Both the position numbers and the translations under genes were made by a program. From Peristeroidobacter agariperforans (GTDB lineage Bacteria > Pseudomonadota > Gammaproteobacteria > Steroidobacterales > Steroidobacteraceae), in NCBI RefSeq assembly GCF_004138335.1, contig NZ_RYFW01000002.1, forward strand, positions 229,501 through 293,500: a DNA stretch of 64,000 nt, written 5' to 3'. This document shows positions 3,176-21,112 of the stretch, piece by piece. The notes below the pieces were generated by a model. That model had not been told where the DNA came from, searched no databases, and was given only the letters and a program-made list of their open reading frames with translations. Numbering within the stretch: the stretch's first letter is position 1; every line of letters begins with the position of its first letter.

Positions 3176-3559
3176 CCGAACCCTGTCATGCTGCCGGCCG
3201 CGACGCGCTGCTGCTGTTTATCTTGCGAGCACAGTGCCGAGCGATTCACGCGCCCATCAGTGAAGTTGTCTCGCGAGTTACAGGCGGAACATCCCGGGCG
3301 GGCCATCTGCATTGATTCCGGAGTTGATCAAGCGGCGTTGATACCAGTGTTTGCTATACACGCAGGCGAGCGAAGCATCTGCGGCGCGACTCGCTGTCTG
3401 GCTGTCATCGATATTCCTTGGTCTGGACGAAGCGCCGGCACGGGAACCGGGCTTGAGTTGCGCATCTTATGTGAATGCAGAGCACGGCCATACAGGATAG
3501 TGTGTTTGTGCGCTCGCGTCAGCGAATCCCGCCGAAGCAAGATCCGAGATGGAGTCATT
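3176..3559. other. Intergenic stretch upstream of the sigma-54 activator, no gene seen
   Basis: This 384-base stretch has an open frame continuous with the downstream activator, but its translation is Cys/Arg-rich with no family resemblance, unlike the gene. I treat it as noncoding leader plus permease debris. No strong promoter or terminator was recognised by eye. Confidence 0.4.
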
Positions 3560-4593: not shown

Positions 4594-5481
4594 TCAATGC
4601 AGCTGCTCGGCCAGCTCGTGGTGCACCTGTTCGATGACAGTGGTCCAGTCGCCGGCGCTGGGCTGACGAAACAGCCGCATCGTGGGATACCACGGCGAGT
4701 CGTCGCGGCCGAGCATCCAACGCCAGTCGGGTGCGTAAGGTAGGAGCAGCCATACTGGCAGCCCGAGTGCGCCGGCCAGGTGCGCAGTCATCGTATCCAC
4801 TGTAATGATGAGATCGAGCAGTTGCATGCGGGCGGCCATTTCCACGATGTCGCGAGAAGCGATCGGCGCAGCCGGCAGCGCACAGGTGGCCGGTGGAAAT
4901 TGCAGGCTGAACCAGCGTACATCGCTCAGTTTCGTCCAGCGACGCAGCTCGGTCGCGCTCAGCGATCGTTTCGGATCCCATTCACCGGCCGACCAGCACA
5001 CACCGATGCGCCGGCGCAGCGATGCCCGTTTTGCCGCGGAACCCGGTACATATATATAAGGCATGGGGCCGGGCAGTTCGTCCACATCCAACCGCAATGC
5101 ATGCGGCAGTTCCATGATCTCGATATCCACATCGTAGTCGAGCCCCGGATCGCCTTCGTGCAGCGGCAGGATCCGATCGATGCCGCGCACGGTTTGTAGC
5201 AGCTTCACCAGCGAGGGTTGCACCCACAGCGTGACTTCGGCAGCGCGCAGTCGAGGATGCGCCAGCAGGCGCACGAACTGAAGCGTATCGCCGAGCCCGT
5301 GATAACAGCGGACGAAGACGCGTCGGCCGGCTAGCGGCTCGCCGTTCCAGACGAATTGCTCATGCCTGGGCAGATGGCTGCAGATCTCGCCACGTCGGAC
5401 GCGCTCTCGCAGGACGGCGTCGCTGATGGCCCAGGCCGAACCGAAATCGCCTCGGTTCATTGCTTCGATCCATGCATCCAC
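4594..5481 (-). CDS. GT9/heptosyltransferase-like glycosyltransferase
   Basis: The 295-residue product has an N-terminal phosphate-loop-like segment RCYHGLGDTLQFVRLL and the C-terminal segment IITVDTMTAHLAGALGLPVW. The latter is the donor-binding region seen in ADP-heptose:LPS heptosyltransferases and in the catalytic end of TPR-linked glycosyltransferases. It is shorter than typical GT9 enzymes (about 340) and lacks an obvious full first Rossmann domain. The GTG start lies seven bases past the deoB stop, making it the last gene of the leftward operon that starts with inositol-phosphate synthase. By context it probably adds a sugar to the product of this cluster. No membrane segment is present. 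Confidence 0.75.
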   Translation of the reverse strand: MDAWIEAMNRGDFGSAWAISDAVLRERVRRGEICSHLPRHEQFVWNGEPLAGRRVFVRCYHGLGDTLQFVRLLAHPRLRAAEVTLWVQPSLVKLLQTVRGIDRILPLHEGDPGLDYDVDIEIMELPHALRLDVDELPGPMPYIYVPGSAAKRASLRRRIGVCWSAGEWDPKRSLSATELRRWTKLSDVRWFSLQFPPATCALPAAPIASRDIVEMAARMQLLDLIITVDTMTAHLAGALGLPVWLLLPYAPDWRWMLGRDDSPWYPTMRLFRQPSAGDWTTVIEQVHHELAEQLH

Positions 5482-5487
5482 GGCCGC

Positions 5488-6723
5488 CTACCATAAGAAT
5501 GAATGGCCATGGTCGCCTGTGGCCAGGCCAAGGTGCCGCGCGACCGTGGCGCCCATGTCCGCAAAGCTGGCGAGCTGGCCCAATGCATGAGGCCTGGCGC
5601 CGCCGTGTTTGAAGTTCGGGCCAAACGCGAGCACCGGTACGCACTCGCGGGTGTGGTCGGAGCCGCTCCAGGTCGGATCGCAGCCGTGATCGCCGGTGAC
5701 GATGGCCAGGTCGCCGTTGCACAGCTGCTGCAGAAACTCGGGCAGGCGTGCATCGAATGCTTCCAATGCTGCTGCGTAACCCGGTACGTCGCGCCGGTGA
5801 CCGTACAAGGTGTCGAAGTCGACCAGGTTGACGAACATCAGTCCGCCGTCCGAAAAATGCCTCATCGCATCGAGTGCTTGATCGAGCACTGCGTCGTTGT
5901 CCTTGCCCTTCAGCTCGCGTCCGGTCGCCGTGTGACAGAACAGATCGCCGATCTTACCGACCGATATCACTTCGCGTTGGGCGTCCCGGGCGCGGCTCAG
6001 CAGAGTTGGGAAGGGCGGCGGCACGCCATAGTCGCGTCGATTCGCAGTTCGCTGATAGCCGGAATGGGTCGTCACGAACGGCCGCGCAATCACTCTGCCG
6101 ACGCGCATTTCGTCGAGCAGCTCGCGCGCAATCCTGCAGGTCTGGTGCAGACGCTCCAGTCCGAAGTGCTGCTCGTGAGCTGCGATTTGAAACACGCTGT
6201 CGGCAGAGGTGTAGCAGATCGGCCAGCCGGTGCGCACATGTTCGTCGCCGAGCTCGTCGATGATCTGGGTGCCGGACGCGTGTTTATTCCCCAGCACGCC
6301 GTCGAAGCCGCCGCGCTCACACAGTTTGTCCGTCAGCGATCGTGGGAAGCACGGCTCAGTGCGCGGGAAATAACCCCATTCGAAATCGACGGGACTGCCG
6401 GCGATCTCCCAATGGCCGGATTGCGAATCTTTGCCGGTCGACACTTCGGCCGCGGCGCCTGCATAGCCGTGCCGCCACGCGGATGTGTTCAGGCTTGGGG
6501 ATACGATGCCCGTCGCCGCTCGACAACATTCGCCGATACCGAGGGCAGCGAGATTGGGCAGGTACAAGGGGCCCGATCTGATGCCGCTGCGATCGGCATC
6601 GCCCTCGGCGCACCGTTGCGCGATGTGACCCAACGTATCAGAGCCGACATCGCCGTAACGATCGGCGTCCGGTGCTCCGCCCACACCGAGCGAGTCGAGC
6701 ACAATGATGAATGCACGGGTCAT
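5488..6723 (-). CDS. deoB: Phosphopentomutase
   Basis: This alkaline-phosphatase-superfamily enzyme interconverts pentose-1-phosphate and pentose-5-phosphate in the cytoplasm using two Mn ions. The 411-residue length is normal. The N-terminal metal/nucleophile region [15 protein letters not shown], the SGHWEIAG segment and the C-terminal metal site [19 protein letters not shown] are intact. The ATG at 6723 overlaps the stop of the upstream glycosidase gene as ATGA. In most bacteria deoB sits with nucleoside catabolism genes (deoA, deoC, deoD). Here it is embedded in a leftward operon with a sugar nucleotidyltransferase and inositol-phosphate synthase, which suggests it supplies or removes a sugar-1-phosphate for glycoside synthesis. 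Identity is near certain; the role in this operon is inferred. Confidence 0.96.
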
Positions 6724-7643
6724 GCGACGGCCACTCTGTTTGTTGAGCGTGCTTCGCTCGGTGCGTAACGCTCGATCATCGACGCGCAGAACTCGGCGAA
6801 TCGCTCCGGCTCGCGCGGCGCGCTGGTGTGATGGGGCAGGATGCCCAGGTGCTCGGGCGTGAAGCAGAATGTCACGGTGACGTCGAAGTCCTGCAGCGCG
6901 GCCATCTGCCGATCGAACCACGCGAGCGCGTTCGGCCGGAAGCTGTCGGCCCATGAGAGGCCGGTACGCAGATGACGCACGCCGAGACGTTTCAGCCAGG
7001 TCACTGCATCATCGAGCCGAGGGTCTTCGAAATGGAACCACTGACAGATACCCATCGCAGGCGTGTGCTGCCCGAATCTTTCCAACGCCTGCTTGGGAGT
7101 GCCGTCCTCACGCAGCAAGCCCATATAGAAATGTCGGTAATAGGACGAGCCTTCGGCTTCGCGATGCCGCGTCGTTGCGGGCCAGGCGCGTGGTAAGTCG
7201 TAAAGGCTGTACCACTGAATGCGCGGCGCTTTGCCCACGAGTAGCGCGGCGGTTCGATCCACGCCCCACGCTTGCACTTCTTCGGCGCCGAAGCTCGAAA
7301 CGCCGACCTCCGTGACCCAAACAGGCAGATGCGTTGCTGCCTGAACTTCCGCGATCTTCTGCGGCCATTCATCGATGCACCATAGATTCCAGTCGAGCGG
7401 AAAGCCGTGGACTGCGACTACATCGACATGCTCGAGCACACCGCGTCCGGCGAGGTTCTGCAGAAAGCCCGGATCGATCGGCGACATGCCGCCGAGCACC
7501 CGGGGCAGGCGAGAATTGGTCGAGCGAATGGCCCGACCTGCGAGGCAGGCCATCTGTGCGAACTGCGCCCAACCGGGATCGACCTCCGGATCCCAGTGCG
7601 ACTTGTTATTCGGCTCATTCCAGATCATCGCGGCTTCGATCAT
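6720..7643 (-). CDS. Clan-A-type glycoside hydrolase-like protein, apparently circularly permuted
   Basis: The 307-residue protein opens at once with [13 protein letters not shown]. This is the acid/base Glu motif (E10) found on strand 4 of clan-A TIM-barrel glycosidases such as GH39 beta-xylosidases. The nucleophile-like Glu is at 112 in [10 protein letters not shown]. Residues from about 198 on ([16 protein letters not shown], then [10 protein letters not shown] and [13 protein letters not shown]) look like strands 1-3 of the same barrel, so the domain order seems to be strands 4-8 followed by 1-3. No signal peptide is seen, so it would act in the cytoplasm. Start and stop overlap both neighbours by ATGA. 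It may be a trimming glycosidase, a transglycosidase, or a noncatalytic relative. Confidence 0.72.
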
Positions 7644-8437
7644 GTGCGCACCTCGATACGAGCGGCTTCACGCGCGACTGGGGTCGGCATGGCGGCCGAA
7701 CCTGGCGGCGTTTCGCCGAGCATCAGCATCGCGGCTCTATAGCCCTGCAACGTGCCGACATCGACGTAAGCCTCGCCGGCTTTGATGCCGAGTGCTTCAC
7801 CGCCGCCCGCCAGGTAGGCATTGATCAACGTTCCAAAGAACTCATCGCTTCGATTGCGCCGTTGCCAGAGCTCGTGCAGCTCGTGCAGGACCGCACCCGG
7901 CATCTTGAACGCGCCCCAGATCCAGTGCGTGCCGGGATCCGGCTGTTTGACGCGGATCTCGACCACGTGCAGCTGATCGTCCGCCAGCATGACCGCGTCG
8001 AATTGCTCCGGCCGTTCTACAGGAAACAGCAGGAACGACAGCTTGTCGTCAGGCAATGCGGCGAGGCCGTGATCTGGAAACCAGATGGTGTCCGGCAAGC
8101 CGATAGCGACAGTATCGGTCGGCGCCACGAGAGCGCGCGCACGGAACACGGCATCGCATAGCCCGGCAGGCTGCGGTTGCACGACGTAAGCAAGGTCGGC
8201 GCCGCCGAAGTGGCCACCGAAGTACTCCAGAATGTCGGACTTGCCCGCCCCGATGACGAAACAGATCTTGTCGGCGCCGCCTCGGATCATCCGCTCCAGC
8301 AGATATTCGCTGACCGCACAAGGCCGCTGCGTGTCGTTCAACATGCGCGAGCCGACTGGCAGCAGTTCCTTCGAGAAGGCCAGTGGTTGAATGCGACTGC
8401 CGCGCCCGGCTGCAGGAACGATGCCCCACATGGTCAT
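7640..8437 (-). CDS. Sugar-1-phosphate nucleotidyltransferase (RmlA/GalU-like)
   Basis: The 265-residue protein begins with the nucleotidyltransferase signature PAAGRGSRIQPLAFSKELLP, containing the GxGxR loop and catalytic Lys. It later has a GLPDTIWFPDHGL segment in the position of the metal-binding Asp and VDVGTLQGY near the C-terminus. It is expected to join a sugar-1-phosphate to an NTP, giving the activated donor for the glycosyltransferases in this cluster; the sugar and base cannot be read. ATGA overlaps link it to the CgeB gene upstream and the glycosidase downstream. The unusual NDTQRPCAVSEYLLERMI stretch is seen in a subgroup of uncharacterised relatives. Confidence 0.88.
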   Translation of the reverse strand: MTMWGIVPAAGRGSRIQPLAFSKELLPVGSRMLNDTQRPCAVSEYLLERMIRGGADKICFVIGAGKSDILEYFGGHFGGADLAYVVQPQPAGLCDAVFRARALVAPTDTVAIGLPDTIWFPDHGLAALPDDKLSFLLFPVERPEQFDAVMLADDQLHVVEIRVKQPDPGTHWIWGAFKMPGAVLHELHELWQRRNRSDEFFGTLINAYLAGGGEALGIKAGEAYVDVGTLQGYRAAMLMLGETPPGSAAMPTPVAREAARIEVRT

Positions 8438-9579
8438 GGCCTCGCGTCGAAGGTCTGGCCGTAGCTTTGTGCTGACCCCTGCATGGCTTGCGGATGAAAT
8501 GGCGAGCGAACCTCTTCCAGGTAGTGAATCAGCTGCTTCGCGCGATGCAGGCTGGTGTGCTCATCCAAAGTGCGCTCGCGTGCGGCGCCTCCGATCGCCT
8601 GTAGCTCCGCATCGCTCATATCCAGCGCCGCCAGCGTGTCGTCGGCGGTGCGCGCCACCAGCACCTGCTCGCCCGGGGTATAGAAGTCATCCAGGCCGCA
8701 CCATTCGTCCGAGAGCACCGCGGCTCCACAGGCCGCGGCCTCGAACAATCGGCCCGACGGACACCAGCCCATGCGAGCCATCGGCTCGCGCGTGACGTTC
8801 AATGTCAGGCGCGAGGACGAGAAGAACGCCGAATGTTCCTGCGGCGGCAGGTGGTAGACGAAATAGACGTTGTTGCTCCAGGGAAAGTGCTCTGGATACT
8901 GCGCGCCGCCGATCAGGAACTTGTCGCGGGGTCGCAGCCGCGCCGGGGCGACGAACAATTCTTCGAGCATGACCTGCCGGTCGGCCGAGTAGGTGCCCAG
9001 CCACGACAACATTGCCCGATAGCGCTCCACCGGAGCGACCGGATGATGGACGTCCGGATCGACATGACCGTACAACGCACGGACGTGCTGTGCGCACAGG
9101 TCGCTTCGCAATGCCTCCAGCGCGGCGCCGCCGGTGTAGCTCAGTACCAAATCGAAATCGCCGAGACCACGCCAGGGGAGGTAAGGGACTTGCTTGCCGG
9201 CGCGCAACGCGTCCAACGTGATCGGCGTGTCGAGGTCGTAGAACACTGCGAGCGGATGCTGGGCGTCGAGGATGGTGTCGGTCGCGGCCTGCGCGTCGAA
9301 GCAGTACGACGAGACGACCGCCGTGTCGCACTCAGCAAGCTCGCGACGGGCACGACCTTCGATGGTAGACCAGTCCGAGTACAGCACGAGCTTGCTATCG
9401 CCCAGGGCAGGCGGCAGCGAGGGCCAGTCGCGACTGGCGGCGTAGTAGGGCACGTCGCGCTCGAAGAACACGAATTCGTGTCCGAGATTTGCCAATGCCT
9501 TGCACAGGCCACGCCACAGCGTGGCATGGCCGTTGCCCCACGAGGAACTGATGGTCAGACCGAAGATCGCGATTTTCAT
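8434..9579 (-). CDS. CgeB-type glycosyltransferase 1
   Basis: The 381-residue GT-B-like protein starts FGLTISSSWGNGHATLWRGL and contains FYDLDTPITLDALR, LSWLGTYSADRQ, LIGGAQYPEHFPW and the donor-site segment SGRLFEAAACGAAVLSDEW. These match the CgeB family (first named from Bacillus spore maturation), whose substrates are mostly unknown. The ATG at 9579 overlaps the stop of the phosphatase gene; an in-frame start at 9621 is rejected because it would extend into that gene. It is clearly paralogous to the product of 19180-20319, sharing SSWGNGHA, DxDTP and GAQYPEH, which suggests successive additions of similar sugars by duplicated enzymes. Confidence 0.88.
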   Translation of the reverse strand: MKIAIFGLTISSSWGNGHATLWRGLCKALANLGHEFVFFERDVPYYAASRDWPSLPPALGDSKLVLYSDWSTIEGRARRELAECDTAVVSSYCFDAQAATDTILDAQHPLAVFYDLDTPITLDALRAGKQVPYLPWRGLGDFDLVLSYTGGAALEALRSDLCAQHVRALYGHVDPDVHHPVAPVERYRAMLSWLGTYSADRQVMLEELFVAPARLRPRDKFLIGGAQYPEHFPWSNNVYFVYHLPPQEHSAFFSSSRLTLNVTREPMARMGWCPSGRLFEAAACGAAVLSDEWCGLDDFYTPGEQVLVARTADDTLAALDMSDAELQAIGGAARERTLDEHTSLHRAKQLIHYLEEVRSPFHPQAMQGSAQSYGQTFDARP

Positions 9580-10175
9580 AAAGATGCCCGCTGGTTGATG
9601 GCATCGATGCGTGGGCCCCACTCGCTCAGGTGCACGCGGCTGATCGACGCAGGACTGATCGCCAATCGCTGATACGCACCGATTGGCGCTTGCAGCCAGT
9701 ACAGGAGCGCGGCACGAATCACTTCCGCGTGCGTCACCAGGATCATCGGCCGACCGGGAAAAGCCTCACTCAGTCGGTGCAGATGGCGCAGCACTCGTGC
9801 CTGCACGTCCCTGATCCGCTCGCCCGCCGGCGTGGCGGCGCTGTCGCGCTGCTCGTTCCATCGCCGCCAGGCGGGATCCCGGGCGAGCTCGTCGAATGTT
9901 TGTCCCGACCAGTGGCCAAAGTCCAGTTCGTCGATATCGCAAGCCGTCACGAGCTCGCACTGACTGCGCGCTGCAATCGCCGCCGCAGTTTGTTGAGCGC
10001 GACGTCGCGGGCTCACCACAAGCAATGTTTCCGAAGTTGGCGCGAGCACGCATGCCATTGCTTCTGCTTCCCGGACTCCGATGGCGGCGAGCGGCGCGTC
10101 GATCGTGCGTCCGAGCAACATCTCATCCATGCGCTCGCACGTGGCGTGGCGCACGAACACGAGATCGTTGGTCAT
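9576..10175 (-). CDS. Histidine phosphatase family protein
   Basis: This 199-residue member of the phosphoglycerate-mutase-like superfamily carries the phosphohistidine motif as VRHAT (residues 8-12; RHG is usual), [12 protein letters not shown] for the second Arg, and VTHAEVIRA for the second catalytic His. It would hydrolyse a phosphate ester in the cytoplasm. Its coding start lies inside the 3' end of the inositol-3-phosphate synthase gene (53-base overlap), so the two are tightly coupled. The simplest inference is that it dephosphorylates inositol phosphate or a sugar phosphate made by this operon; no SuhB-type inositol monophosphatase is present here. Its downstream neighbour overlaps by ATGA. 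Confidence 0.88.
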
Positions 10176-11262
10176 GAGCTTGATCCTGAGTGGCCTTGCC
10201 GGCGATGAAGTCGAGCGTCAGCTGGCGCGCAACATGATCGGTGAACTGCTGAGGCGGCGATTTCATGAAATAGCTCGACGGCCCCGTCAGTGCGCCGCCT
10301 ACGCGGCGATCCAGCGCAAGCTGCGCACAGCGCACGGCGTCGATCACCACGCCCGCGGAGTTCGGCGAGTCCCACACTTCGAGCTTCAACTCGATATTCA
10401 GCGGCGAGCCGCCGAATGCCGTGCCTTCCATACGAATGTAGGCCCACTTCCTATCGCTCAACCACTCGACATGGTCGCTCGGGCCGACATGGATGTTGTC
10501 CGGCGCCACGTCGATCTGACTGGTGACCGAGCGTGTCTTGGACAGCTTCTTCGACACCAGCCGCTCCCGCTCCAGCATGTTCTTGAAGTCGGCGTTGCCG
10601 CCGAAGTTGAGCTGATAGGTGTGATCCAGGCTCACGCCGCGCTCGCGGAACAAATTGGCCAGCGCACGGTGCACGATGGTCGCGCCGACCTGGCTCTTGA
10701 TGTCATCGCCGACCAGGGGCAGGCGCGCCACTTCGAAACGGCGCCGCCAGTCGGCGTCCGATGCGATGAACACTGGAATGCAATTGACGAACGCGCATCC
10801 GGCTTCGAGCGCGCGCAACGCATACCATTCGGTCGCACGCTGCGAGCCGACGGGAAGATAAGAGACCAGGATCTGCGTACCGCTGTCCCGCAGGATCTTT
10901 ACAACATCGGCTTCCGCTGCCTCCGACTCGATCAGCTCGTCTTCCAGATAGATGCCGATGCCGTCGAGTGTGCGGCCTCGCGCGACCTTGACGCCCAACG
11001 CAGGCAGCGGAGCGAATACGCGCGTGTTGTTGGGCGGGGCGAGCAACGCTTCGGAGAGGTCTTTGCCGACTTTGGGTGCGGTGATATCGAATGCCGAAGT
11101 AATTCGGATGTCACGCACGTGGTACGGGCCGACCCTTGCGTGCATCAAACCGGGAATGACCGCGTCATCGTCGGCATCGTGGTAGTAGTGCAAGCCTTGC
11201 ACGAAGGATGATGCGCAGTTGCCGGCGCCGACGATGCCAACATTCACTGTCTCAGCGTTCAA
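10123..11262 (-). CDS. ino1: Inositol-3-phosphate synthase (mycobacterial-type Ino1)
   Basis: The enzyme converts glucose-6-phosphate to 1L-myo-inositol-1(3)-phosphate with NAD. The protein is colinear with actinobacterial Ino1: [17 protein letters not shown] (NAD loop), [44 protein letters not shown] with a catalytic Lys, and [17 protein letters not shown] prefer a TTG start at 11262 (GGGAG five bases upstream; 379 residues) over a TTG at 11316. The last 53 bases overlap the phosphatase gene, giving an Arg/His-rich C-terminal tail (about 17 residues) not typical of the family. It is the first gene of the leftward glycan operon. Ino1 is uncommon in proteobacteria, so its presence is a strong hint that the cluster product contains inositol. 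Confidence 0.95.
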
Positions 11263-11524
11263 TGCCGTCTCCCGCGAAGTGAGCCTGTCGCGAACGCTGA
11301 TGCACGAATCATGCAAGGCTTCAGATCAATAAAAAAAGCGCCGGTCGATGGGTCCAGGCGTGTAGTCGCTCCGTAGCTATGTAACTTTTTTTCCCGGTCG
11401 GCGGTCTGCTGCCCGCTTTTTCGCCGCGTGTAACGCTGCCGCAGCGGCGGCACGCTTGTTGCTACTTACCTTCGGGGCGGCTCGCCATCGTGAGTCATCA
11501 CCGACAGCTTTCGAGGAACTCCCA
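11263..11524. promoter_or_regulatory. Divergent control region of the inositol-glycan cluster
   Basis: These 262 bases lie between the divergent first genes of two operons and must carry both promoters. They contain A- and T-runs (AAAAAAA near 11331, TTTTTTT near 11387, TTTTT near 11418) in otherwise GC-rich DNA. No convincing -35/-10 pair or known operator was identified by eye. The minus-strand reading between about 11380 and 11465 gives a Lys/Ala-rich peptide, which I take as chance. Confidence 0.6.
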
Positions 11525-12712
11525 GTGGGCAAGCTATGGACATCGGATGAAACCATCCAATTCTCCGGGCGCAGCGGCAATGGACGCTGGTCCAGCGACG
11601 CACTGGTGCTGGTGACTGGAGGCGCGGGTTTCATCGGTTCGCACGTGGCCAATCTGCTCGCCGAAAGCGGCTCGCGCGTGCGCGTGATCGATGCGCTCGA
11701 CGCCCAAGTTCACGGCGAGGAGCCCGGCTTTCCGGCTCATCTGCACGCCGACGTCGAGCGCGTCGAAGGCGATATTCGCGACCGCGATGCTTTGTGTGCA
11801 GCGCTGCAGGGCGCTACGCACGTTTGTCATCTGGCCGCCGCGGTCGGCGTCGGTCAAAGCATGTATGAGATCGAACGCTACGTCGATATCAACAATCGTG
11901 GCACCGCCTTGTTGCTGGAAACGTTGATGGATCGTCCGCTGCAACGATTGGTGGTGGCTTCGAGCATGAGCGTGTATGGCGAAGGGCTGTACCGGCAGCC
12001 GGGCGGTAACGGCTCACAGTATTGCGAGCCGCAGCTGCGATCGCGACAGCAGCTGAGCGAAGGCCGTTGGGAGATCGAAACTGTCGATGGCAAGCTCGAG
12101 CCGGTGGCGACTCCGGAAACCAAGCACGTGGCGCCGGCATCGGTGTACGCATTGTCGAAATACGATCAGGAGCAGATGTGCCTGATGTTCGGATCCGCTT
12201 ATGGCGTACCGACCGTGGCATTGCGCTTCTTCAACGCTTACGGCCCCCATCAGGCGCTGTCGAATCCTTACACCGGCGTGCTCGCGATCTTCGCGTCGCG
12301 CTGTATCAATGGCAATCCGCCGCTGATCTTCGAGGACGGCATGCAACGGCGCGACTTCGTCAGCGTGCGTGATGTCGCCCGTGCGTGTCAGTTGGCGCTC
12401 ACTACGCCGGCGCTCGGCGAGACTTTCAACATTGGTTCGGGCGAGCCGCGCACGGTGCTGGAAGTTGCCAATAGCGTCATCGACGCGGTGAATGCGCCGG
12501 TCGATCCGCGGGTCACGGGCAAATACCGTATCGGCGACATCAGGCACTGCTTTGCAGATATCTCGAAGGCGGAGCAACTGCTGGGTTACCAGCCGCAAGT
12601 GAAGTTCGAGGACGGCCTGGTGGAATTGGCCGAATGGCTGGCGAGCACTTCGGCGAACGACAACTTCATGCGCGCCAGCGCCGAGCTCGATCGCAGAGGG
12701 CTGACGCTGTGA
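11525..12712 (+). CDS. NAD-dependent sugar epimerase/dehydratase 1
   Basis: This extended short-chain dehydrogenase has a Rossmann motif TGGAGFIGSH, the active-site Ser in SSMSVYGEG, and YALSKYD as catalytic YxxxK. The RFFNAYGPHQALSNPYTGV segment is typical of UDP/GDP-sugar epimerases and dehydratases. The GTG at 11525 with AGGA seven bases upstream gives 395 residues; the frame upstream to 11456 lacks family resemblance. An insert of roughly 40 residues between the Ser motif and YxxxK is longer than in GalE. It starts the rightward operon and overlaps the next gene by GTGA. It probably modifies a nucleotide sugar made by the nucleotidyltransferase of this cluster; the substrate is not determinable. 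Confidence 0.88.
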   Translation: MGKLWTSDETIQFSGRSGNGRWSSDALVLVTGGAGFIGSHVANLLAESGSRVRVIDALDAQVHGEEPGFPAHLHADVERVEGDIRDRDALCAALQGATHVCHLAAAVGVGQSMYEIERYVDINNRGTALLLETLMDRPLQRLVVASSMSVYGEGLYRQPGGNGSQYCEPQLRSRQQLSEGRWEIETVDGKLEPVATPETKHVAPASVYALSKYDQEQMCLMFGSAYGVPTVALRFFNAYGPHQALSNPYTGVLAIFASRCINGNPPLIFEDGMQRRDFVSVRDVARACQLALTTPALGETFNIGSGEPRTVLEVANSVIDAVNAPVDPRVTGKYRIGDIRHCFADISKAEQLLGYQPQVKFEDGLVELAEWLASTSANDNFMRASAELDRRGLTL

Positions 12713-13815: not shown

Positions 13816-13830
13816 TTTCAAGGTAATCGC

Positions 13831-14808
13831 ATGAGCGATGTGCAGCACGCAGCCAGGTTGATTCGGCCCATGACCACGCGGATCAGCGAGGTGAGGGTGC
13901 CCGAGCCCGGCGCGAACGAAGTGCGTGTCATGCTGGAGGGCTGCGGCATCTGTGCTTCCAACCTGCCGGTGTGGGAAGGACGTGAGTGGTTCAAATATCC
14001 GCTCGAAGCCGGATCGCCGGGACACGAGGGCTGGGGCATCGTCGATGCAGTCGGCGCAGGCGTCGAGGATCTCGAAGCAGGGCAGCGAGTGGCGTTGATG
14101 TCCGGCCACGCATATGCCGAGTACGACATCGCTTCGCGTAACTGTGTCGTGGCCTTGCCGGAGGAGCTGGACGACGAACCGTTCCCCGGCGAGCCGTTCG
14201 GCTGCGTGATGAATATTTTCGAGCGCAGCGACATTCACGCCGGGCAGACAGTCGCGGTCGTGGGCGGTGGTTTCATCGGCTTGCTGTTGACGCAGCTGGC
14301 GTCCGACGCCGGTGCGCACGTCGTGGTGCTGTCGCACCGTGAGTGGGCGCTGCAGCTCGCGTTGACGATGGAGGCGGAGGACATCATCGCCACCAAAGAC
14401 GACGGTCACGACGCCGAGCGGGCCATGCAGCTCACCAGCAACCGGGGCTTCGATCGAGTAATCGAGGTGTCGGGGGTGCAATCCGGTCTCGATCTCGCCA
14501 GCGATATTGCGGGCGAGCGCGCCCGTCTCATCATCGCCGGCTATCACCAGGACGGGCCTCGCCAGGTCAATATGCAGCAGTGGAACTGGCGCGGCCTGGA
14601 TGTCATCAACGCGCACGAGCGTTCGATGGACCGCTATGTCCTGGGTGTGCAGAAGGCGATCCAAGCTGCGTTGGAAGGCCGGCTCGATCCGTTCCCGTTA
14701 TTGACGCACACCGTATCGCTCGGCTCGCTCGACCTTGGCTTCAAGCTGATGCGGGAGCGGCCCGACGGATTCGTCAAAGCGCTGCTGCTCAACGAGGTCG
14801 ACTCGTGA
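13831..14808 (+). CDS. Medium-chain alcohol/polyol dehydrogenase
   Basis: This 325-residue MDR protein has EGCGICASNLPVWEG with the catalytic-zinc Cys, SPGHEGWGIVDAVG with His and Glu, and a VVGGGFIGLLL nucleotide-binding loop. The structural-zinc lobe with four Cys is absent, as in several sorbitol- or threonine-type relatives. It would oxidise a hydroxyl with NAD(P) in the cytoplasm. AAGG lies eight bases before the ATG, 15 bases past the previous stop, and its own stop overlaps the next gene by GTGA. Next to a Gfo/Idh/MocA enzyme and with Ino1 opposite, an inositol or sugar hydroxyl is a reasonable substrate guess. Confidence 0.87.
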   Translation: MSDVQHAARLIRPMTTRISEVRVPEPGANEVRVMLEGCGICASNLPVWEGREWFKYPLEAGSPGHEGWGIVDAVGAGVEDLEAGQRVALMSGHAYAEYDIASRNCVVALPEELDDEPFPGEPFGCVMNIFERSDIHAGQTVAVVGGGFIGLLLTQLASDAGAHVVVLSHREWALQLALTMEAEDIIATKDDGHDAERAMQLTSNRGFDRVIEVSGVQSGLDLASDIAGERARLIIAGYHQDGPRQVNMQQWNWRGLDVINAHERSMDRYVLGVQKAIQAALEGRLDPFPLLTHTVSLGSLDLGFKLMRERPDGFVKALLLNEVDS

Positions 14809-15851
14809 GCGCGCGATTGCAAGTGCCCGCCAAATCGCCGAGCTCGGCGCGACTTGCTCTTGCCCGGCCGCGGATTGGGTTCGTCGGCCTCGGATGGATC
14901 GGACGCAAGCGACTCGACGCGTTGACTGCCGACAGCCGTGCAGACTTCGAAGTCGCCGCTCTGGTCGATAGCGATGCCGATCGACTGCGCGCGGCCGCTG
15001 CGGCTCATCCAGAAGCGTCAGTTGGGTCTGCCATCGATGCGTTGCTCGACGAAGGTCTGGACGCGGTCGTGATTGCGACACCGAACGGTTTGCACGCCAA
15101 TCAAGCCGTCGCTTGCCTGGAGCGCGGCATGGCGGTGTTCTGTCAGAAACCGCTCGCAACCACATTGAGCGATGTGCAACGAGTGCTCTCGGCGGCTCGT
15201 GCTGCCGATCGTTTACTCGGCATCGACTTCTGCTATCGCCACATCACCGGCATGGAAGTGTTGCGGCGTCGGCTGTCGTCAGGCGCGCTCGGTGACGTCA
15301 TCGCGGTCAGTCTGGTTTTCCACAATGCCTACGGGCCCGATAAGTCCTGGTGCAGGAGTCCCGCGCTGGCCGGTGGCGGTTGTTTGCTGGACCTCGGCGT
15401 GCACTTGCTCGATCTGGCGCTATGGGTGCAAGGCATGCCGCCCACGGAGCGGGTGCGCAGCCGACTGTTTGCTCATGGGCAGCCAGTGCAAGGTCGTGCG
15501 GGGGAGCTGGAAGATCTTGCTTACGCCGAGTTCATCCAGGCGAACGGTGCGATCGTGCGGCTGTGCTGCTCCTGGTATGCGCACATCGGTCAGCCGGCCC
15601 AGATTCGGATGGAGATCGCCGGCACGCGCGGTGGTGCTTCATGGCGCAATATCGATGGCTCTTTCTATGACTTCGACGTTTGTTTGTTTCAAGGAACGCA
15701 GCGCGAGCAACTCGGGACGTCGAGGGACGATTGGGGGACTCGGGCGTTGCGTGCGTGGCTGCGGCAGTTGCAGGCGAGCAATCGCTTCGACGCCGAAGCC
15801 GAAAACATCGTTCGCAGTGCCGCCCTCATCGAGGAGGTCTATCGGGCATGA
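14805..15851 (+). CDS. Gfo/Idh/MocA-family oxidoreductase
   Basis: The 348-residue product has the N-terminal Rossmann loop IGFVGLGWIGRKRLDAL and ATPNGLHANQAVACLERG. The family EKP motif appears as CQKPLATT, with Gln for Glu, and a C-terminal domain includes GGGCLLDLGVHLLDLALW. The family includes inositol dehydrogenases, scyllo-inosose reductases and sugar-nucleotide oxidoreductases. The GTG start at 14805 overlaps the previous stop. Together with the dehydrogenase upstream it could perform an oxidation/reduction (epimerisation) of inositol or a sugar unit. Overlap with the following glycosyltransferase is ATGA. Confidence 0.9.
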   Translation: MSARLQVPAKSPSSARLALARPRIGFVGLGWIGRKRLDALTADSRADFEVAALVDSDADRLRAAAAAHPEASVGSAIDALLDEGLDAVVIATPNGLHANQAVACLERGMAVFCQKPLATTLSDVQRVLSAARAADRLLGIDFCYRHITGMEVLRRRLSSGALGDVIAVSLVFHNAYGPDKSWCRSPALAGGGCLLDLGVHLLDLALWVQGMPPTERVRSRLFAHGQPVQGRAGELEDLAYAEFIQANGAIVRLCCSWYAHIGQPAQIRMEIAGTRGGASWRNIDGSFYDFDVCLFQGTQREQLGTSRDDWGTRALRAWLRQLQASNRFDAEAENIVRSAALIEEVYRA

Positions 15852-16939
15852 AGCTCCTGATGACAGCCGATGCGGTGGGCGGAGTATGGACGTATGCGCT
15901 CGATCTGTGCTCGGCTTTGTCAGGAAGCGGCGTCGACGTCGTGCTGGCGACCATGGGGCCGCGTCCGAGCGGAGAGCAACGCGCGGCCGCCGCAGCGCTG
16001 TGCAACGTACAACTCGTGGAGTCGGACTATCGACTGGAATGGATGGGCGCTGCCTGGGCCGATGTCGATGCGGCGGGCAAATGGCTGCTCGATCTCGCTG
16101 CCTCGAATGCCGTGGATGTCATCCACATCAATGGATACTCGCACGCAGCGCTGCCATGGAGACAACCTGTCGTTTGCGTGGCGCACTCGTGCGTATGGAC
16201 CTGGTGGCAAGCCGTATATGGCAACTCGCCGCCGGAACGGTGGAACGAATATCGCGGCCGTGTCGCCACCGGGCTGAACAGCGCCGATATCGTTATTGCT
16301 CCGACCGCAGCGTTCCTCGAACAGCTCGGTGCGTGCTATGCGTTTACGCCGCCAACACGCGTGATCAGAAACGGACGAGCGCCGGCAGCTTCCAGTTGCA
16401 ACGTCCCACGTGAGCCCATTGTGTTGGCCTGCGGGCGGCCCTGGGATGCTTCGAAGAACATCCGCGTTCTCGACGATGCCTCACGAAACGCCCGTTGGAG
16501 CGCATATGTGATCGGCAGCGTTACAGGACCCGATGGTCAGACGTTTAAACCCTCGGCAGTCCGGGCTGTCGGTGCGCAACCAAGTCGCGAAGTTCACAAG
16601 TGGATGCATCGGGCGAGCATCTTCGTACATCCGGCACTTTACGAGCCGTTCGGCTTGGTCGTGGTCGAGGCGGCAAGCGCCGGGTGCGCGCTCGTGCTCG
16701 CTGACATCCCGACGCTGCGCGAGCTATGGAATGGCGCCGCCGAGTTCTTCAAACCGCGCAATGCTCGCAGTCTGCGCGGGAAGTTGGACGCGCTCCTTGC
16801 CGATTCAGAGCGCCGACAGGAACTGTCAACGGCGGCCAGGAGGCGAGCAAAGGACTACAGCATCGAGTCCACCGCGGCGGAATACATGGAAACGTATCGA
16901 GCGCTCCTTGGTAATCATGGGGAGCGAACCGCCGCATGA
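15848..16939 (+). CDS. Glycosyltransferase family 4 protein
   Basis: This 363-residue GT-B enzyme has the N-terminal GGVWTYALDLCSAL loop and a C-terminal donor site ASIFVHPALYEPFGLVVVEA followed by SAGCALVLADIPTLREL, carrying the family E-x7-E pattern. LACGRPWDASKN marks the start of the second domain. It should transfer a sugar from a nucleotide donor in the cytoplasm. The ATG at 15848 overlaps the oxidoreductase stop as ATGA, and its own end overlaps the next gene in the same way. It is the only classical GT4 among the cluster's transferases and is a plausible first-step enzyme on inositol, as MshA-type GT4 enzymes are; that step is inference. Confidence 0.9.
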   Translation: MKLLMTADAVGGVWTYALDLCSALSGSGVDVVLATMGPRPSGEQRAAAAALCNVQLVESDYRLEWMGAAWADVDAAGKWLLDLAASNAVDVIHINGYSHAALPWRQPVVCVAHSCVWTWWQAVYGNSPPERWNEYRGRVATGLNSADIVIAPTAAFLEQLGACYAFTPPTRVIRNGRAPAASSCNVPREPIVLACGRPWDASKNIRVLDDASRNARWSAYVIGSVTGPDGQTFKPSAVRAVGAQPSREVHKWMHRASIFVHPALYEPFGLVVVEAASAGCALVLADIPTLRELWNGAAEFFKPRNARSLRGKLDALLADSERRQELSTAARRRAKDYSIESTAAEYMETYRALLGNHGERTAA

Positions 16940-18060
16940 AGTTCGTCCTGTTCTACCACTCGCTGATCTCAGATTGGAATCACGGCAACGCGCACTTCCT
17001 GCGCGGCATCGTTAGCGAACTGCTCTACCGCGGACATGCCGTCGACGTCTACGAGCCGGAGTCGGGGTGGAGCTTGACGAATCTGCTCAACGAGCGGGGC
17101 GAGGCTGCGCTCGCCGATTTTTACGTGACCTTTCCCGAGCTGAGCAGCAAGTCGTTCGACGCTGCGAGTCTGGATGTGGATGCGGCGCTGGAGGGAGCCG
17201 ATGTGGTCATCGTTCACGAGTGGAACGAGCCTGCATTGATCCAGCGAATCGGAGCGAGCGCCAGACGGCAGGGCTGCACTGCCCTGTTCCACGACACCCA
17301 TCATCGCAGCGTCACCGACGCGTCGACGATGGCGGAGCTGGATCTGCGTCACTACGACGGCGTGCTCGCGTTTGGTCAGGCGGTCGCGGAGCAGTACACA
17401 CGTCACGGCTGGGCCGCACAGAGCTGGGTGTGGCACGAAGCCGCCGATCTGCGCCGTTTCGCTCCGTTGCCTGTTACCGATCAGCGGGCGGATCTGGTCT
17501 GGATCGGTAACTGGGGCGATGACGAGCGTAGCGCCGAGCTGCACGAGCATCTGATCGAGCCGACGCGACGGCTGCGCTTGAAAGCAGCAGTGCACGGCGT
17601 CCGCTATCCCGAGCATGCGCTGCAGACTCTGCGCGAGGCCGGCATCGCGTACCGAGGCTGGTTGCCGAACCATCGGGTGCCGGAAGTGTTCGCTCGTCAT
17701 CGGTGCACCGTGCACGTGCCTCGGCAGACATATGCCCGACAACTGCACGGCATTCCGACGATCCGCATGTTCGAAGCCTTGGCGTGTGGCATTCCGTTGG
17801 TCAGTGCGCCATGGCGCGACTCCGAGAATCTGTTCCGGCCGGGCGTCGATTATCTGGTGGCGGCCGATGGCAACGAGATGGAACGTCATCTGCGCGCCAT
17901 TCTCAATGACGCAGAACTCGCGGCAAGCCTGGCCCGCCATGGATTGGAAACGATTCTGGCTCGGCATTCCTGCGCGCATCGAGTCGATGAGCTGTTGAAT
18001 ATCTTGACGACGCGGCAGACAGCTGCCTTGCCGCGCTCGGTGGCAGGAGGACTGTCATGA
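16936..18060 (+). CDS. CgeB-type glycosyltransferase 2
   Basis: The 374-residue protein begins FVLFYHSLISDWNHGNAHFL, a divergent form of the GNGHA motif of the other CgeB proteins here. It has LVWIGNWGDDERS and VHGVRYPEHALQTL, and ends its second domain with IPTIRMFEALACGIPLVSAPW followed by LFRPGVDYLVA. This is the arrangement of the C-terminal glycosyl-transferase-1-like CgeB domain. It is cytoplasmic, without membrane segments. ATGA overlaps join it to both neighbours. It is the most divergent of the four CgeB-type paralogues of the cluster, so it may use a different acceptor. Confidence 0.85.
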   Translation: MKFVLFYHSLISDWNHGNAHFLRGIVSELLYRGHAVDVYEPESGWSLTNLLNERGEAALADFYVTFPELSSKSFDAASLDVDAALEGADVVIVHEWNEPALIQRIGASARRQGCTALFHDTHHRSVTDASTMAELDLRHYDGVLAFGQAVAEQYTRHGWAAQSWVWHEAADLRRFAPLPVTDQRADLVWIGNWGDDERSAELHEHLIEPTRRLRLKAAVHGVRYPEHALQTLREAGIAYRGWLPNHRVPEVFARHRCTVHVPRQTYARQLHGIPTIRMFEALACGIPLVSAPWRDSENLFRPGVDYLVAADGNEMERHLRAILNDAELAASLARHGLETILARHSCAHRVDELLNILTTRQTAALPRSVAGGLS

Positions 18061-19193
18061 CCGCGAAAGTAACATTGGCCATGTTCGGCTCGAGCTTGGT
18101 GTCGGCGTACTGGAACGGCGCGGCGACCTATTATCGCGGCATGATCCGCGCCCTGGATGGTTGCGGATTCGATATAACTTTCTACGAGCCGGACGCCTTC
18201 GATCGCCAGCAGCATCGAGACATGCCCGACCCGAGCTGGGCCAAGGTGGTGATTTATCCTGCCACGCCCGATGGTTTGCAGTCCGCGCTCGAACAGGCTC
18301 GAGACGCTGACATTATCGTGAAGGCCAGTGGCGTCGGTGTGTTCGATGAGGAATTGGAAGCCGAGGTGCCGCAACTACGGCGTGCTTCGAATCTGACAGT
18401 TTTCTGGGATGTCGATGCCCCGGCTACGTTGCAGCGCATGCGGGCGGATGGGTCGGATCCGTTTCGATCGCAAGTGCCCAGATATGATCTGGTGCTGACC
18501 TACGGCGGCGGACCGCCCGTGGTCGCAGAATATTCGAACTTTGGGGCGCGCCACTGCGTTCCTATTTACAACGCGCTTGATCCGATGACCCATCATCCAG
18601 TGCAGCCGGACCCGAGATTCAGCGGCGCGTTGGGATTTCTCGGCAACCGGTTGCCCGACCGCGAGGCCCGCGTGCGTGAGTTCTTTTTAAAGCCTGCCGC
18701 CTTGCTGCGTGATAAGAAATTCTTGCTGGGCGGTTCGGGTTGGGAACGCAACGTCGCGTTGACCGACAACGTCAGTTACGTGGGCCACGTCTATACACGC
18801 GACCACAACGCTTTCAATTGCTCCACGCTCGCCGTGCTCAACATCAATCGCGACAGTATGGCGCAGGTCGGCTACTCACCGCCGACCCGTGTATTCGAAG
18901 CGGCCGGCGCGGGCGCTTGTTTGATCTGCGATGCCTGGGAGGGACTGGAGCAGTTTCTCGAGCCGGGCAGGGAAGTCTTGCGTGTCGAAAGTGGCGAGGA
19001 AGTGGCGAGAGCTTTGCCTGCTCTGACGGCACGCAAAGCCAAGCGCATTGGAGAGCGTGCCAGGCAGCATCTGTTGAGTGAGCACACCTACGGGCATCGC
19101 GCGATTGAGGTCAAGAGATTGCTGGTGGAGCAGTTATCCCGTCGCGCCGTGCCGGCCAGATACGACGAGGAGGTGCACCGTGCGGCGCTCTGA
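18057..19193 (+). CDS. CgeB-type glycosyltransferase 3
   Basis: This 378-residue paralogue starts AMFGSSLVSAYWNGAATYYR and has FWDVDAPATLQRMR (corresponding to DxDTP in its relatives), GALGFLGNRLPDREARV, LLGGSGWERNV and the donor-site segment PTRVFEAAGAGACLICDAW. GGAGGA lies just before the ATG at 18057, which overlaps the previous stop by four bases. The next gene starts 14 bases inside its end. The same fold and order of motifs as the products of 8434-9579 and 19180-20319 argues for gene duplication within the cluster and for a product with several related sugar units. Confidence 0.87.
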   Translation: MTAKVTLAMFGSSLVSAYWNGAATYYRGMIRALDGCGFDITFYEPDAFDRQQHRDMPDPSWAKVVIYPATPDGLQSALEQARDADIIVKASGVGVFDEELEAEVPQLRRASNLTVFWDVDAPATLQRMRADGSDPFRSQVPRYDLVLTYGGGPPVVAEYSNFGARHCVPIYNALDPMTHHPVQPDPRFSGALGFLGNRLPDREARVREFFLKPAALLRDKKFLLGGSGWERNVALTDNVSYVGHVYTRDHNAFNCSTLAVLNINRDSMAQVGYSPPTRVFEAAGAGACLICDAWEGLEQFLEPGREVLRVESGEEVARALPALTARKAKRIGERARQHLLSEHTYGHRAIEVKRLLVEQLSRRAVPARYDEEVHRAAL

Positions 19194-20319
19194 CGAAATC
19201 ATATTCATCGGCCTGTCCATCACCTCATCGTGGGGCAACGGGCACGCCTCTACCTATCGTTCCTTGATTCGCGGCCTGCATCGGCTCGGTCACAAGGTCA
19301 TGTTCCTCGAGCGGGATCAGCCGTGGTACGCAAGCAATCGCGATGCGCCCATCCTGCCTTATTGTCAGTCGCGGCTGTATGTGGACGTGGATGAGTTGTG
19401 CGCCAGATACACTCCGCGGCTGCGTGCCGCTGCTGCAGTGATCGTCGGCTCTTATGTCGATGAGGGTCGGCAGGTTTGCGATTGGGTGCTCGATCACGCG
19501 ACCGGCGTCAAGGCGTTCTACGACATCGACACGCCCGTGACAGTGGCGCGACTGCAGGACGACAGCTGCGAGTATCTGCGCGCTTCGCAGGTTCCGGAGT
19601 TCGATGTGATGTTGAGCTTCACGGGCGGTCCCATCCTCGGGCGCCTGGAACGAGATTTCGGCGCGAGGTCGGCGCGACCGCTGTATTGCAGTGTGGACGT
19701 CGATCAGTATCAGCCCACCGGCTCGCATCGTGACATCGAGCTCGGCTACCTGGGCACCTACAGCGAGGACCGGCAGCCGGCGCTGGAAACATTGTTGAAC
19801 GAGCCGGCGCGTCGCTTGCCGAAGCGGCGCTTCGCCGTGGTCGGCGCCCAGTATCCGGAGCACCTGGTATGGCCGAAGAATGTACAGCGCGTGGATCACA
19901 TGGCTCCCGGCTCGCACGCACAGTTCTACGGCCGGCAGCGATTCACCTTGAATCTCACGCGAGCCGACATGCGCAAGGCGGGATACTCGCCGAGCGTGCG
20001 GTTGTTCGAAGCGGCGGCTTGCGGCACGCCCATCATTTCGGATGAGTGGGTCGGGATCGATGAATTGCTGGAACCAGGCAAGGAAGTCCTGCTGGCGGAT
20101 TCCACGCGGAACGTCACTGAAATCCTGGAGAACGTGAGCGATGCCGAGGCCGAGCAGATCGCCGCAGCCGCGCGCGAGCGCATCTGTGCCGAACACAGCA
20201 GCGTGCACCGTGCCGAGGAGCTGGAAAGTTATCTGAACGCTGCGCGTGAGTCTGCTGTTCGCAAGCCGCTGGCAGCGGTCGCCGGAGCATCTGCCGAGCG
20301 CGCTGTCGCTGCGCATTGA
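19180..20319 (+). CDS. CgeB-type glycosyltransferase 4
   Basis: The 379-residue product carries FIGLSITSSWGNGHASTYRS, FYDIDTPVTVARLQ, LGYLGTYSEDRQPALE, VVGAQYPEHLVWP and SVRLFEAAACGTPIISDEW, matching the CgeB-type enzyme at 8434-9579 motif for motif. I place the start at GTG 19180, with GGAGG about six bases before it; this overlaps the preceding gene by 14 bases. An upstream in-frame extension to 19078 has no family resemblance. It is the last transferase of the rightward operon and is followed ten bases later by the methyltransferase. Confidence 0.88.
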   Translation: MRRSDEIIFIGLSITSSWGNGHASTYRSLIRGLHRLGHKVMFLERDQPWYASNRDAPILPYCQSRLYVDVDELCARYTPRLRAAAAVIVGSYVDEGRQVCDWVLDHATGVKAFYDIDTPVTVARLQDDSCEYLRASQVPEFDVMLSFTGGPILGRLERDFGARSARPLYCSVDVDQYQPTGSHRDIELGYLGTYSEDRQPALETLLNEPARRLPKRRFAVVGAQYPEHLVWPKNVQRVDHMAPGSHAQFYGRQRFTLNLTRADMRKAGYSPSVRLFEAAACGTPIISDEWVGIDELLEPGKEVLLADSTRNVTEILENVSDAEAEQIAAAARERICAEHSSVHRAEELESYLNAARESAVRKPLAAVAGASAERAVAAH

Positions 20320-20329
20320 GGGCTAGGCT

Positions 20330-21112
20330 ATGGCGTTGCAAAGCTCGATGCGCGAGCAGATCGCAGGCCTGGGGCCGTGGTTCCACAATCTGCACTTGCC
20401 CGACGGCACACAGACTTCTCCCGATCATCCGTTCGGCGACTTTCCCAGTTTCAAATGGCAACACGTCGCGGCCGCAGTCCCGGAGGATCTGTCGGGATGG
20501 TCGGTGCTCGATATCGGCTGCAATGCCGGGTTCTACAGCTTCGAGCTGGCCAGGCGCGGTGCGCACGTGATGGGTGTCGATGTCGAACCGCTCTATGTAC
20601 GCCAGGCGTGTTGGGCCGCTCGTGAGTTCGATTTCAAAGACCAGGTCGAGTTCGTCGAGGGCGATGTTTATGGGCTGCTCGGCTCGGATCGTCGCTACGA
20701 CCTGGTGTGGTTCACCGGCGTGTTCTACCACTTGCGCTACCCGACGCTGGCGCTGGATCTGGTGCGGCGGGCTACGCAGCGACTCATGGTGTTTCAAAGC
20801 ATGACCATGCCCGGCCCGGCGCGGGACGTGGCGCCGCCGGATGTGCCGTTGCATCGGCGCGAGCTGATGCTCGAGGAAGGATGGCCCAAGATGGCGTTCG
20901 TCGAGCATCGCGTTGCCGACGACGACAGCAACTGGTGGGTGCCCAACGCCAGTTGCGTCGAGGCGCTGCTGCGTTCGGCCGGTTTCGAAGTGCTGGCCCG
21001 GCCCGAGCACGAGTTCTATGTTTGCAAGCCGGTGCGAGTGCCGGAGGGATCCAGTCGCGACCTGGCGCGGATTACAACGATTTCAACAGCCCATGGCTGT
21101 AACGGTCCTTGA
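20330..21112 (+). CDS. SAM-dependent methyltransferase (CmoB-like/TIGR04290-type)
   Basis: This 260-residue class I methyltransferase has motif I as VLDIGCNAGFYSFELARRG, then GVDVEPLYVRQA, a VWFTGVFYHLRYP post-motif, and an N-terminal GPWFHNLHLPDG region that resembles CmoB-like (Methyltransf_9) proteins. I recall NCBI naming such proteins TIGR04290; that should be checked. It probably methylates the glycan or inositol product as a late step. GAGG precedes the ATG, ten bases after the last CgeB gene. The final 41 bases overlap the 3' end of the convergent Crp/Fnr gene, so the two operons end tail-to-tail. Confidence 0.88.
   Translation: MALQSSMREQIAGLGPWFHNLHLPDGTQTSPDHPFGDFPSFKWQHVAAAVPEDLSGWSVLDIGCNAGFYSFELARRGAHVMGVDVEPLYVRQACWAAREFDFKDQVEFVEGDVYGLLGSDRRYDLVWFTGVFYHLRYPTLALDLVRRATQRLMVFQSMTMPGPARDVAPPDVPLHRRELMLEEGWPKMAFVEHRVADDDSNWWVPNASCVEALLRSAGFEVLARPEHEFYVCKPVRVPEGSSRDLARITTISTAHGCNGP

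Follow-up and report, generated by a model that had tools for sequence, protein, structure and literature searches.

A cluster of 16 genes was analysed at positions 4594-21112 of a 64,000-nucleotide stretch of DNA (the window) from Peristeroidobacter agariperforans, the genome of which measures 7.65 Mb. Seven of the genes (A-G) run leftward and nine (H-P) rightward from a divergent gap at ~11.32-11.53 kb (Table 1). In our judgement the chances are about even that the 16 genes constitute one stress-inducible pathway, plasmid-borne in some species, that makes a soluble, methylated oligosaccharide, with inositol as its base or attached to it, which probably serves as a protectant. The computational observations behind this reading are the gene set and its synteny, the mutual exclusivity of the dehydrogenase pair J/K and the radical S-adenosylmethionine (SAM) family TIGR04295, promoter-like boxes, and a permutation in the sequence of the glycosidase-like protein C. 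What is new is that J/K and TIGR04295 strictly replace each other, that the set appears wired to two sigma factors, that the glycosidase is permuted and that a model organism has an intact copy. With this, a gene set without a known product gains a testable role within the general stress response, as part of its output in bacteria such as the laboratory strain Sinorhizobium meliloti 1021.

The genomes of named species were scanned for Ino1 (inositol-3-phosphate synthase, gene G), and the best 80 of 530 places were examined within their fetched flanks. Cluster-gene profiles found two or more cluster genes in 50 of these 80 loci, among Alpha- and Gammaproteobacteria, so that the synteny across genera which the original prediction, made from the letters of the window, had proposed as a check was indeed found. 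The nearest named relatives in the scan were Steroidobacter agaridevorans and S. gossypii (98% and 92% Ino1 identity), and the other cluster loci belonged to Methylobacterium, Microvirga, Bradyrhizobium, Rhodoplanes, Chelativorans, Roseomonas, Brevundimonas and others besides the Steroidobacter group. The gene set is conserved beyond chance, as one set in two modules. Module 1 comprises C, P, D, E, F and G, with A, B (present in nine of the 50 loci, and within the Bradyrhizobium operon), a PIG-L deacetylase and a second GT4 enzyme as optional members. Module 2 comprises H, I, in some loci a radical SAM gene, L, M, N and O, with an optional UDP-glucuronate decarboxylase (matching 4gll at 1.7e-103); in the window it has the J/K redox pair. 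Ino1 occurs with module 2 genes in 29 of the 50 loci, and at least three genes of each module in 27, which bears out the claim that the two halves belong together. In eight of the 50 loci (L035, L040, L050, L052, L053, L060, L068 and L081), a PIG-L deacetylase and a second GT4 stand beside C, an arrangement that is, by analogy, reminiscent of MshA/MshB-type chemistry. In the other 30 loci (mostly Chloroflexota, with some Actinomycetota and others), Ino1 stood alone in the fetched flanks. Their Ino1 (loci between L051 and L095) is 60-66% identical to that of the window, and this identity without other cluster genes in view suggests that Ino1 was transferred between phyla.

Gene C, used as a marker of distribution, is rare overall. 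In a sample of 385 genomes from the class of a Bradyrhizobium, the latter counted in, 8 had it, but the figure was 50 of 258 in the family of a Microvirga; among 72,556 plasmid records it was found on 97, 66 of them from Sinorhizobium. On pSymB of S. meliloti 1021, positions 242,469-257,899 carry P, the decarboxylase, O, N, M, L, I and H, then J, K and G, F, C. Each copy covers nearly its whole profile, K being without the non-coding lead present in its own; the copy in this strain is intact. In Bradyrhizobium sp. 195, a conjugative plasmid carries 15 genes, spanning Ino1 to the decarboxylase, all in the same orientation. Beyond that cluster lies treZ, of trehalose synthesis (L122, 19171-20988), on the opposite strand and with one small gene between.

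In the window, J (MDR family) and K (Gfo/Idh/MocA family) stand between I and L. At 15 of the 50 cluster loci a TIGR04295 gene was present in the cluster, none of them with J or K in view; the Bradyrhizobium match scored 726.7 bits against a cut-off of 400 and has a B12-binding domain. No TIGR04295 match was obtained at E 0.001 in the window's own genome, where J and K stand instead. Two sets of whole genomes were then counted for TIGR04295 and J. Among the 49 genomes behind the Ino1 loci (that of L027 not included), 21 had TIGR04295 (one match partial, G242, 407.6 bits), 27 had J (in two pieces at contig ends in G219), none had both and one, Methylobacterium sp. Leaf117, had neither. The second set of 50 consisted of 48 C-positive genomes together with G005 and G008, chosen by Ino1; TIGR04295 was found in 34 (33 above the cut-off, and G746 with a partial match of 240.7 bits over profile positions 1-171, below it), J in 16 (at least 474 bits), and both or neither in none. 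With the one genome common to both sets (G005, the same as G225 by its coordinates) counted once, the 98 distinct genomes chosen by Ino1 or C gave 55 with TIGR04295, 42 with J, none with both and one with neither (Fisher p 4.6e-27 for exclusivity, not corrected for kinship). Twenty genomes without C had neither, save for one J paralogue of 146 bits.

Gene K travels with J. It scored at least 401 bits in 20 of 20 J genomes tested and adjoined J in 19 of 19 fetched regions, and none of the 55 TIGR04295 genomes reached that level (best, 117 bits). Mapped on the Ino1 tree (46 rows) and the C tree (45 rows), the J-or-TIGR04295 label requires five or more changes; truncated L018 was left out of the J alignment, and L077 and L108 out of the K alignment. 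On plasmids, TIGR04295 (E up to 1e-80) was found in Azospirillum (5), Bradyrhizobium (2), Tistrella (1) and Geminicoccaceae (1), and J (E up to 1e-70) in ten other genera, none of them shared with TIGR04295. Since the two are mutually exclusive in the 98 genomes, K accompanies J and the label switches repeatedly, J/K and TIGR04295 are probably interchangeable and probably perform the same step. K resembles inositol 2-dehydrogenase and DgpA, which we take to be a glycoside dehydrogenase, and J resembles ketose reductase and threonine dehydrogenase; they might act on a cyclitol or on a sugar residue. Two dehydrogenases in series, one oxidising and one reducing, would be redox-neutral, so that epimerisation is the simplest candidate for the step, and the radical SAM enzyme could perform the same epimerisation in a single step. 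That a genome has strictly either the two dehydrogenases or the one B12-radical-SAM enzyme limits the possible reactions of TIGR04295: C-methylation becomes less likely, and a redox-neutral change at a carbinol carbon more likely.

Evidence for stress control came from the regions upstream of the genes. The consensus of EcfG, the alphaproteobacterial stress sigma factor, is given in an excerpt of one source as GGAAC-N16-CGTT with the -10 variant TGTT (PMC7083833) and in an excerpt of another as GGAAC-N17-20-GTT (PMC6599016). The pattern GGAAC-N15-18-YGTT was searched in a region that reached from 250 bases upstream of the predicted start of Ino1 to 60 downstream of it. It was found by Ino1 in 23 of the 45 cluster loci outside the Steroidobacter group, by H in 9 of 23, and by one or the other in 25 of 45; it was found in none of the 30 Ino1 loci without the cluster and by C in none of 45. 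In 200 dinucleotide shuffles of the Ino1 regions, a mean of 0.3 loci and a maximum of 2 had a box, and among 30 permutations of GGAAC the true one ranked first (23 loci; next, 8). The box lies 75 bases before Ino1 in Bradyrhizobium sp. 195 and 65 bases before the start of the H match in S. meliloti 1021; on a Rhizobium esperanzae plasmid, boxes lie 53 bases before J and before a nucleotidyltransferase gene.

In the group of the window, a predicted sigma-54 -24/-12 site (CGGCACGCTTGTTGCT in the window) stands before H or the decarboxylase. The pattern matched five times in ~1.02 Mb (51 sequences), always at this cluster: in the window, L016, L017, L018 and L024. A sigma-54 activator gene lies near the cluster in the window, L016, L017 and L024, the contig of L018 being too short to tell, and the predicted activator of the window has a GAFTGA-type loop (GSFTGA). 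Hence, with EcfG boxes outside the window group and a sigma-54 site and activator within it, the same gene set appears to be wired to two different alternative sigma factors. Between Ino1 and H, the five loci of the group also keep a palindrome, ATGCACGAA[T/G]CATGCAA, and a GTAAC[T/G]TTTT element (window 11300-11316 and 11381-11392), possibly activator sites or a leftward promoter. Elsewhere in the host genome (contig C9, ~1,506,900-1,510,500; L116, 3874-7543) there is a complete module of PhyR, NepR, an ECF sigma factor and a HisKA_2 kinase, with EcfG boxes. This general stress module is of the alphaproteobacterial type, yet it was found in a Steroidobacter, a gammaproteobacterium; EcfG is called exclusive to Alphaproteobacteria in an excerpt of a further source (PMC3892343).

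Protein C is 68-95% identical to that of the window over 40 relatives. The alignment had 41 rows (40 of 48 homologues and the window); L018, L049 and L066 (truncated), L025 (in-frame stop), L021 (a near-copy of L020), L019, L072 and L077 were dropped. The NEP motif, which is normally found in the middle of the barrel, sits at the N-terminus of C, and the C-terminal 100 residues look like the first barrel strands. In a profile search of PDB sequences, C profile positions 3-185 matched residues 132-320 of PslG, presumably a GH39-type endoglycosidase, with 21.6 bits, and positions 200-296 matched residues 25-131 with 7.3 bits, a score that is weak alone; the whole chain gave an E value of 2.4e-6. 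As the two PslG-matching pieces come in swapped order, C is, by its sequence, a circularly permuted barrel. The putative catalytic residues E10 and E112 are invariant in 41 of 41 rows. In an AlphaFold model (pLDDT 83.6, pTM 0.85), E10 follows the first strand (4-7) and E112 lies in or just after the fourth (108-113). In clan A, the catalytic Glu pair stands at the ends of strands 4 and 7, three strands apart; the modelled spacing in C agrees with this GH39-like rule, and its strand order, by the PslG matches, departs from the canonical one. No hydrophobic signal-like segment was detected in C at hydropathy of at least 1.6. On plasmids, genes of this type that are annotated as 'beta-xylosidase' prove to be permuted barrels within a biosynthetic cluster.

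Several observations weigh against the one-pathway reading. No strict EcfG box was found by Ino1 or H in 20 of the 45 loci outside the Steroidobacter group; none was seen before the Azospirillum cluster (L124), nor at the cluster in the window, L016-L018 and L024. The literature search found neither a product nor a mutant. The evidence for the epimerase step is of a single type, co-occurrence; most known B12-radical-SAM enzymes are methylases, and the nearest solved structure to TIGR04295 is 6fd2, which we take to be AprD4, a dehydratase. The conjugative R. esperanzae plasmid (L123) has module 2 with J/K, and over the 25 kb inspected Ino1, a glycosidase and a TIGR04290 methyltransferase are all absent from the annotation; nucleotidyltransferase and metallophosphoesterase genes are also present on it. 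As module 2 occurs there without module 1 nearby, inositol may not be part of every product. Further, J was found on 48 Rhizobium plasmid records and C on five, a comparison that covers plasmid records and not chromosomes, and the cluster loci of Chelativorans are split. It is conceivable, if rather unlikely, that two separable pathways share one locus, with module 2 making an oligosaccharide by itself which the inositol derivative of the Ino1 module joins only sometimes. Against this stand the frequency with which Ino1 and module 2 genes share flanks, the colinear Bradyrhizobium run with its box upstream, and the fact that the J-or-radical-SAM rule holds in genomes picked by module 1 genes.

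Exclusivity cannot separate equal function from alternative branches, so J/K and TIGR04295 might instead catalyse separate steps and be markers of two sub-pathways that end in different products. The accessory genes around the two differ, and J and K of Microvirga and Brevundimonas are found at the cluster edge instead of between I and L. However, both can occupy the place between I and L in similar clusters (J-K in the window and L097; the radical SAM gene in L039, L045 and L080), and the label was repeatedly switched on the trees; we regard different steps as unlikely.

With regard to the product of a single pathway, the reactions, the compound itself and its role are what we infer. Ino1 would make inositol phosphate, and the histidine phosphatase F would strip the phosphate from it or from its glycoside. 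D would activate a sugar, and H and I would shape nucleoside diphosphate (NDP)-sugars, joined in relatives by UDP-glucose dehydrogenase and UDP-glucuronate decarboxylase. J would oxidise one hydroxyl and K would reduce the ketone from the other face, the resulting epimerisation being performed in other species by TIGR04295 through radical chemistry. The GT4 enzyme L and the CgeB enzymes would attach residues, P would methylate, and C, as a cytoplasmic glycosidase, would trim or recycle the chain. From the five glycosyltransferases, the CDP-tyvelose-type C2-epimerase, the decarboxylase of relatives and the methyltransferase, one would expect a hetero-oligosaccharide that is short and methylated. 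The pairing of Ino1 with a phosphatase suggests that one end is inositol, and the stress boxes and nearby treZ suggest a protectant role.

No flippase, polymerase, ABC exporter, phosphoglycosyl transferase or acyltransferase family was found among the 16 proteins with Pfam and NCBIfam, and none of them has more than one hydrophobic segment (hydropathy of at least 1.6). A soluble cytoplasmic product is therefore likeliest, and the glycolipid that the original prediction had allowed for did not find support. A glycan or glycolipid of the cell surface, with its export proteins encoded outside the cluster, would suit the many glycosyltransferases and NDP-sugar enzymes, as well as the pyruvyl transferase gene after the S. 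meliloti copy; given the missing families and membrane segments, we think it improbable. A secondary metabolite of the aminocyclitol kind is highly improbable, since no aminotransferase, resistance or efflux family was found among the 16 genes (Pfam) and stress-sigma boxes occur in relatives, even though Ino1 and the dehydrogenases (IolG-like and MDR) bring such pathways to mind, as does a radical SAM family that lies closest to an apramycin enzyme. A broader proposal, which we regard as possible but doubtful, is that the clusters represent an undescribed class of inositol-linked protectant oligosaccharides, made by a widespread and often plasmid-borne stress pathway of soil and nodule bacteria, in which TIGR04295 proteins would be B12-radical-SAM epimerases rather than methylases, repeatedly exchanged with an MDR and Gfo/Idh/MocA pair, and C a permuted clan-A barrel recycling the product intracellularly.

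Families were assigned to the genes of the window (Table 1) from Pfam and NCBIfam profile matches, and gene A was also compared with PDB sequences. What the original prediction had observed was partly confirmed and largely right, and its pathway interpretation was partly supported. The sixteen-gene bidirectional layout was borne out, and the profile scores agreed with the families named for Ino1, the phosphatase, the nucleotidyltransferase, DeoB, the glycosidase-like protein, the two epimerases, the MDR and Gfo/Idh/MocA oxidoreductases, the GT4 enzyme and the methyltransferase. Three CgeB-type transferases had been counted; there are four (E, M, N and O; PF13524 125.2-133.7 bits), since that of the leftward arm had been missed. 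The 'GT9-like' label given to A was that reader's own, and no match was found in Pfam, NCBIfam or PDB sequences at the thresholds used. Nearly every junction had been described as an ATGA or GTGA overlap, which is exact for 9 of 14; of the other five, two are overlaps (53 and 14 bases) and three are gaps (6, 15 and 10), lengths affected by the choice among possible start codons for some genes. The motif PAAGxGSR...SKELLPVG is kept in D across a 32-row alignment, and the RH motif and a later H are conserved in F at the 95% level (46 rows). After P, the region 21072-23556 holds a Crp/Fnr-type regulator and, farther on, an HWE histidine kinase; a Crp/Fnr-type regulator also lies beside P at the end of the L016 and L017 stretches.

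Table 1 Features of the cluster and its surroundings in the window
Feature	Position	Strand	Basis
Sigma-54-dependent activator, GSFTGA motif read from sequence	3188..4591	+	PF00158 215 bits; true start probably inside the open reading frame
A, protein without family assignment	4594..5481	-	Relative in 14 of 50 cluster loci
B, phosphopentomutase DeoB	5488..6723	-	TIGR01696 443.1 bits, cut-off 341.2
C, glycosidase-like, circularly permuted TIM barrel by sequence	6720..7643	-	Glyco_hydro_cc 21.3 bits, cut-off 21
D, sugar-1-phosphate nucleotidyltransferase	7640..8437	-	PF00483 (NTP_transferase) 29.4 bits, cut-off 21.2
E, CgeB-type glycosyltransferase	8434..9579	-	PF13524 126.9 bits
F, histidine phosphatase	9576..10175	-	PF00300 (His_Phos_1) 145.2 bits
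G, inositol-3-phosphate synthase Ino1, start codon uncertain	10123..11316	-	PF01658 113.9 bits; TIGR03450 502.8 bits, below cut-off 638
Sigma-54 -24/-12 type site before H	11448..11463	+	Sole pattern match in the window
H, extended SDR, NDP-sugar epimerase-like, start uncertain (GTG start codon)	11525..12712	+	PF01370 171.5 bits
I, CDP-tyvelose 2-epimerase-like NDP-sugar epimerase	12709..13815	+	phmmer 9rl0 3.2e-83, 1orr 4.3e-78; next 2p5u 2.4e-36
J, MDR dehydrogenase	13831..14808	+	PF00107/PF08240
K, Gfo/Idh/MocA oxidoreductase, IolG/DgpA-like	14805..15851	+	TIGR04380 100 bits, below cut-off 355; 7xr9 3.3e-36
L, GT4 glycosyltransferase	15848..16939	+	PF00534, PF13439
M, CgeB-type glycosyltransferase	16936..18060	+	PF13524 125.2 bits
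N, CgeB-type glycosyltransferase	18057..19193	+	PF13524 127 bits
O, CgeB-type glycosyltransferase	19180..20319	+	PF13524 133.7 bits
P, TIGR04290 methyltransferase	20330..21112	+	317.1 bits, cut-off 300

Literature searches found no characterised pathway that matches the cluster. The closest neighbourhood is that of the TIGR04290 and TIGR04295 families (the latter named B12_rSAM_oligo): P of the window scores above the TIGR04290 cut-off and TIGR04295 occurs in the equivalent clusters of other bacteria. Both families are hypoth_equivalogs without an assigned reaction, and the genome of the window has J and K instead of TIGR04295. Mycothiol biosynthesis shares Ino1 and a GT4 enzyme with the cluster. 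However, the GT4 of the window reaches 40.4 bits, over the C-terminal part only, against the MshA cut-off of 462.5 (TIGR03449), and its Ino1 falls short of the mycothiol equivalog TIGR03450. No MshB, MshC or MshD family was found among the 16 genes, the rest of the genome not being searched for them; like the original prediction, which had ruled mycothiol out, the profile scores lend no support to such a route. C matches most of the PslG barrel and differs from it in the order of the two pieces and in having no signal-like segment.

In the synthesis of 2-deoxystreptamine, NAD-dependent dehydrogenases are the counterparts of the radical SAM enzyme BtrN. As described in an excerpt of one source, BtrN oxidises a cyclitol and so provides a precedent for such chemistry (PMC9012708); it replaces one dehydrogenase, whereas TIGR04295 stands for two and has a B12-binding domain. 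The nearest working analogue known to us is the mycobacterial methylmannose polysaccharide cluster, which, according to an excerpt of its description, has a transferase of its own, methyltransferases and a hydrolase by which the product is recycled (PMC9883506). It differs in comprising four genes, with no inositol enzyme and with a hydrolase of the (alpha/alpha)6 fold (same excerpt), and the likeness is one of workings, the genes not having been compared.

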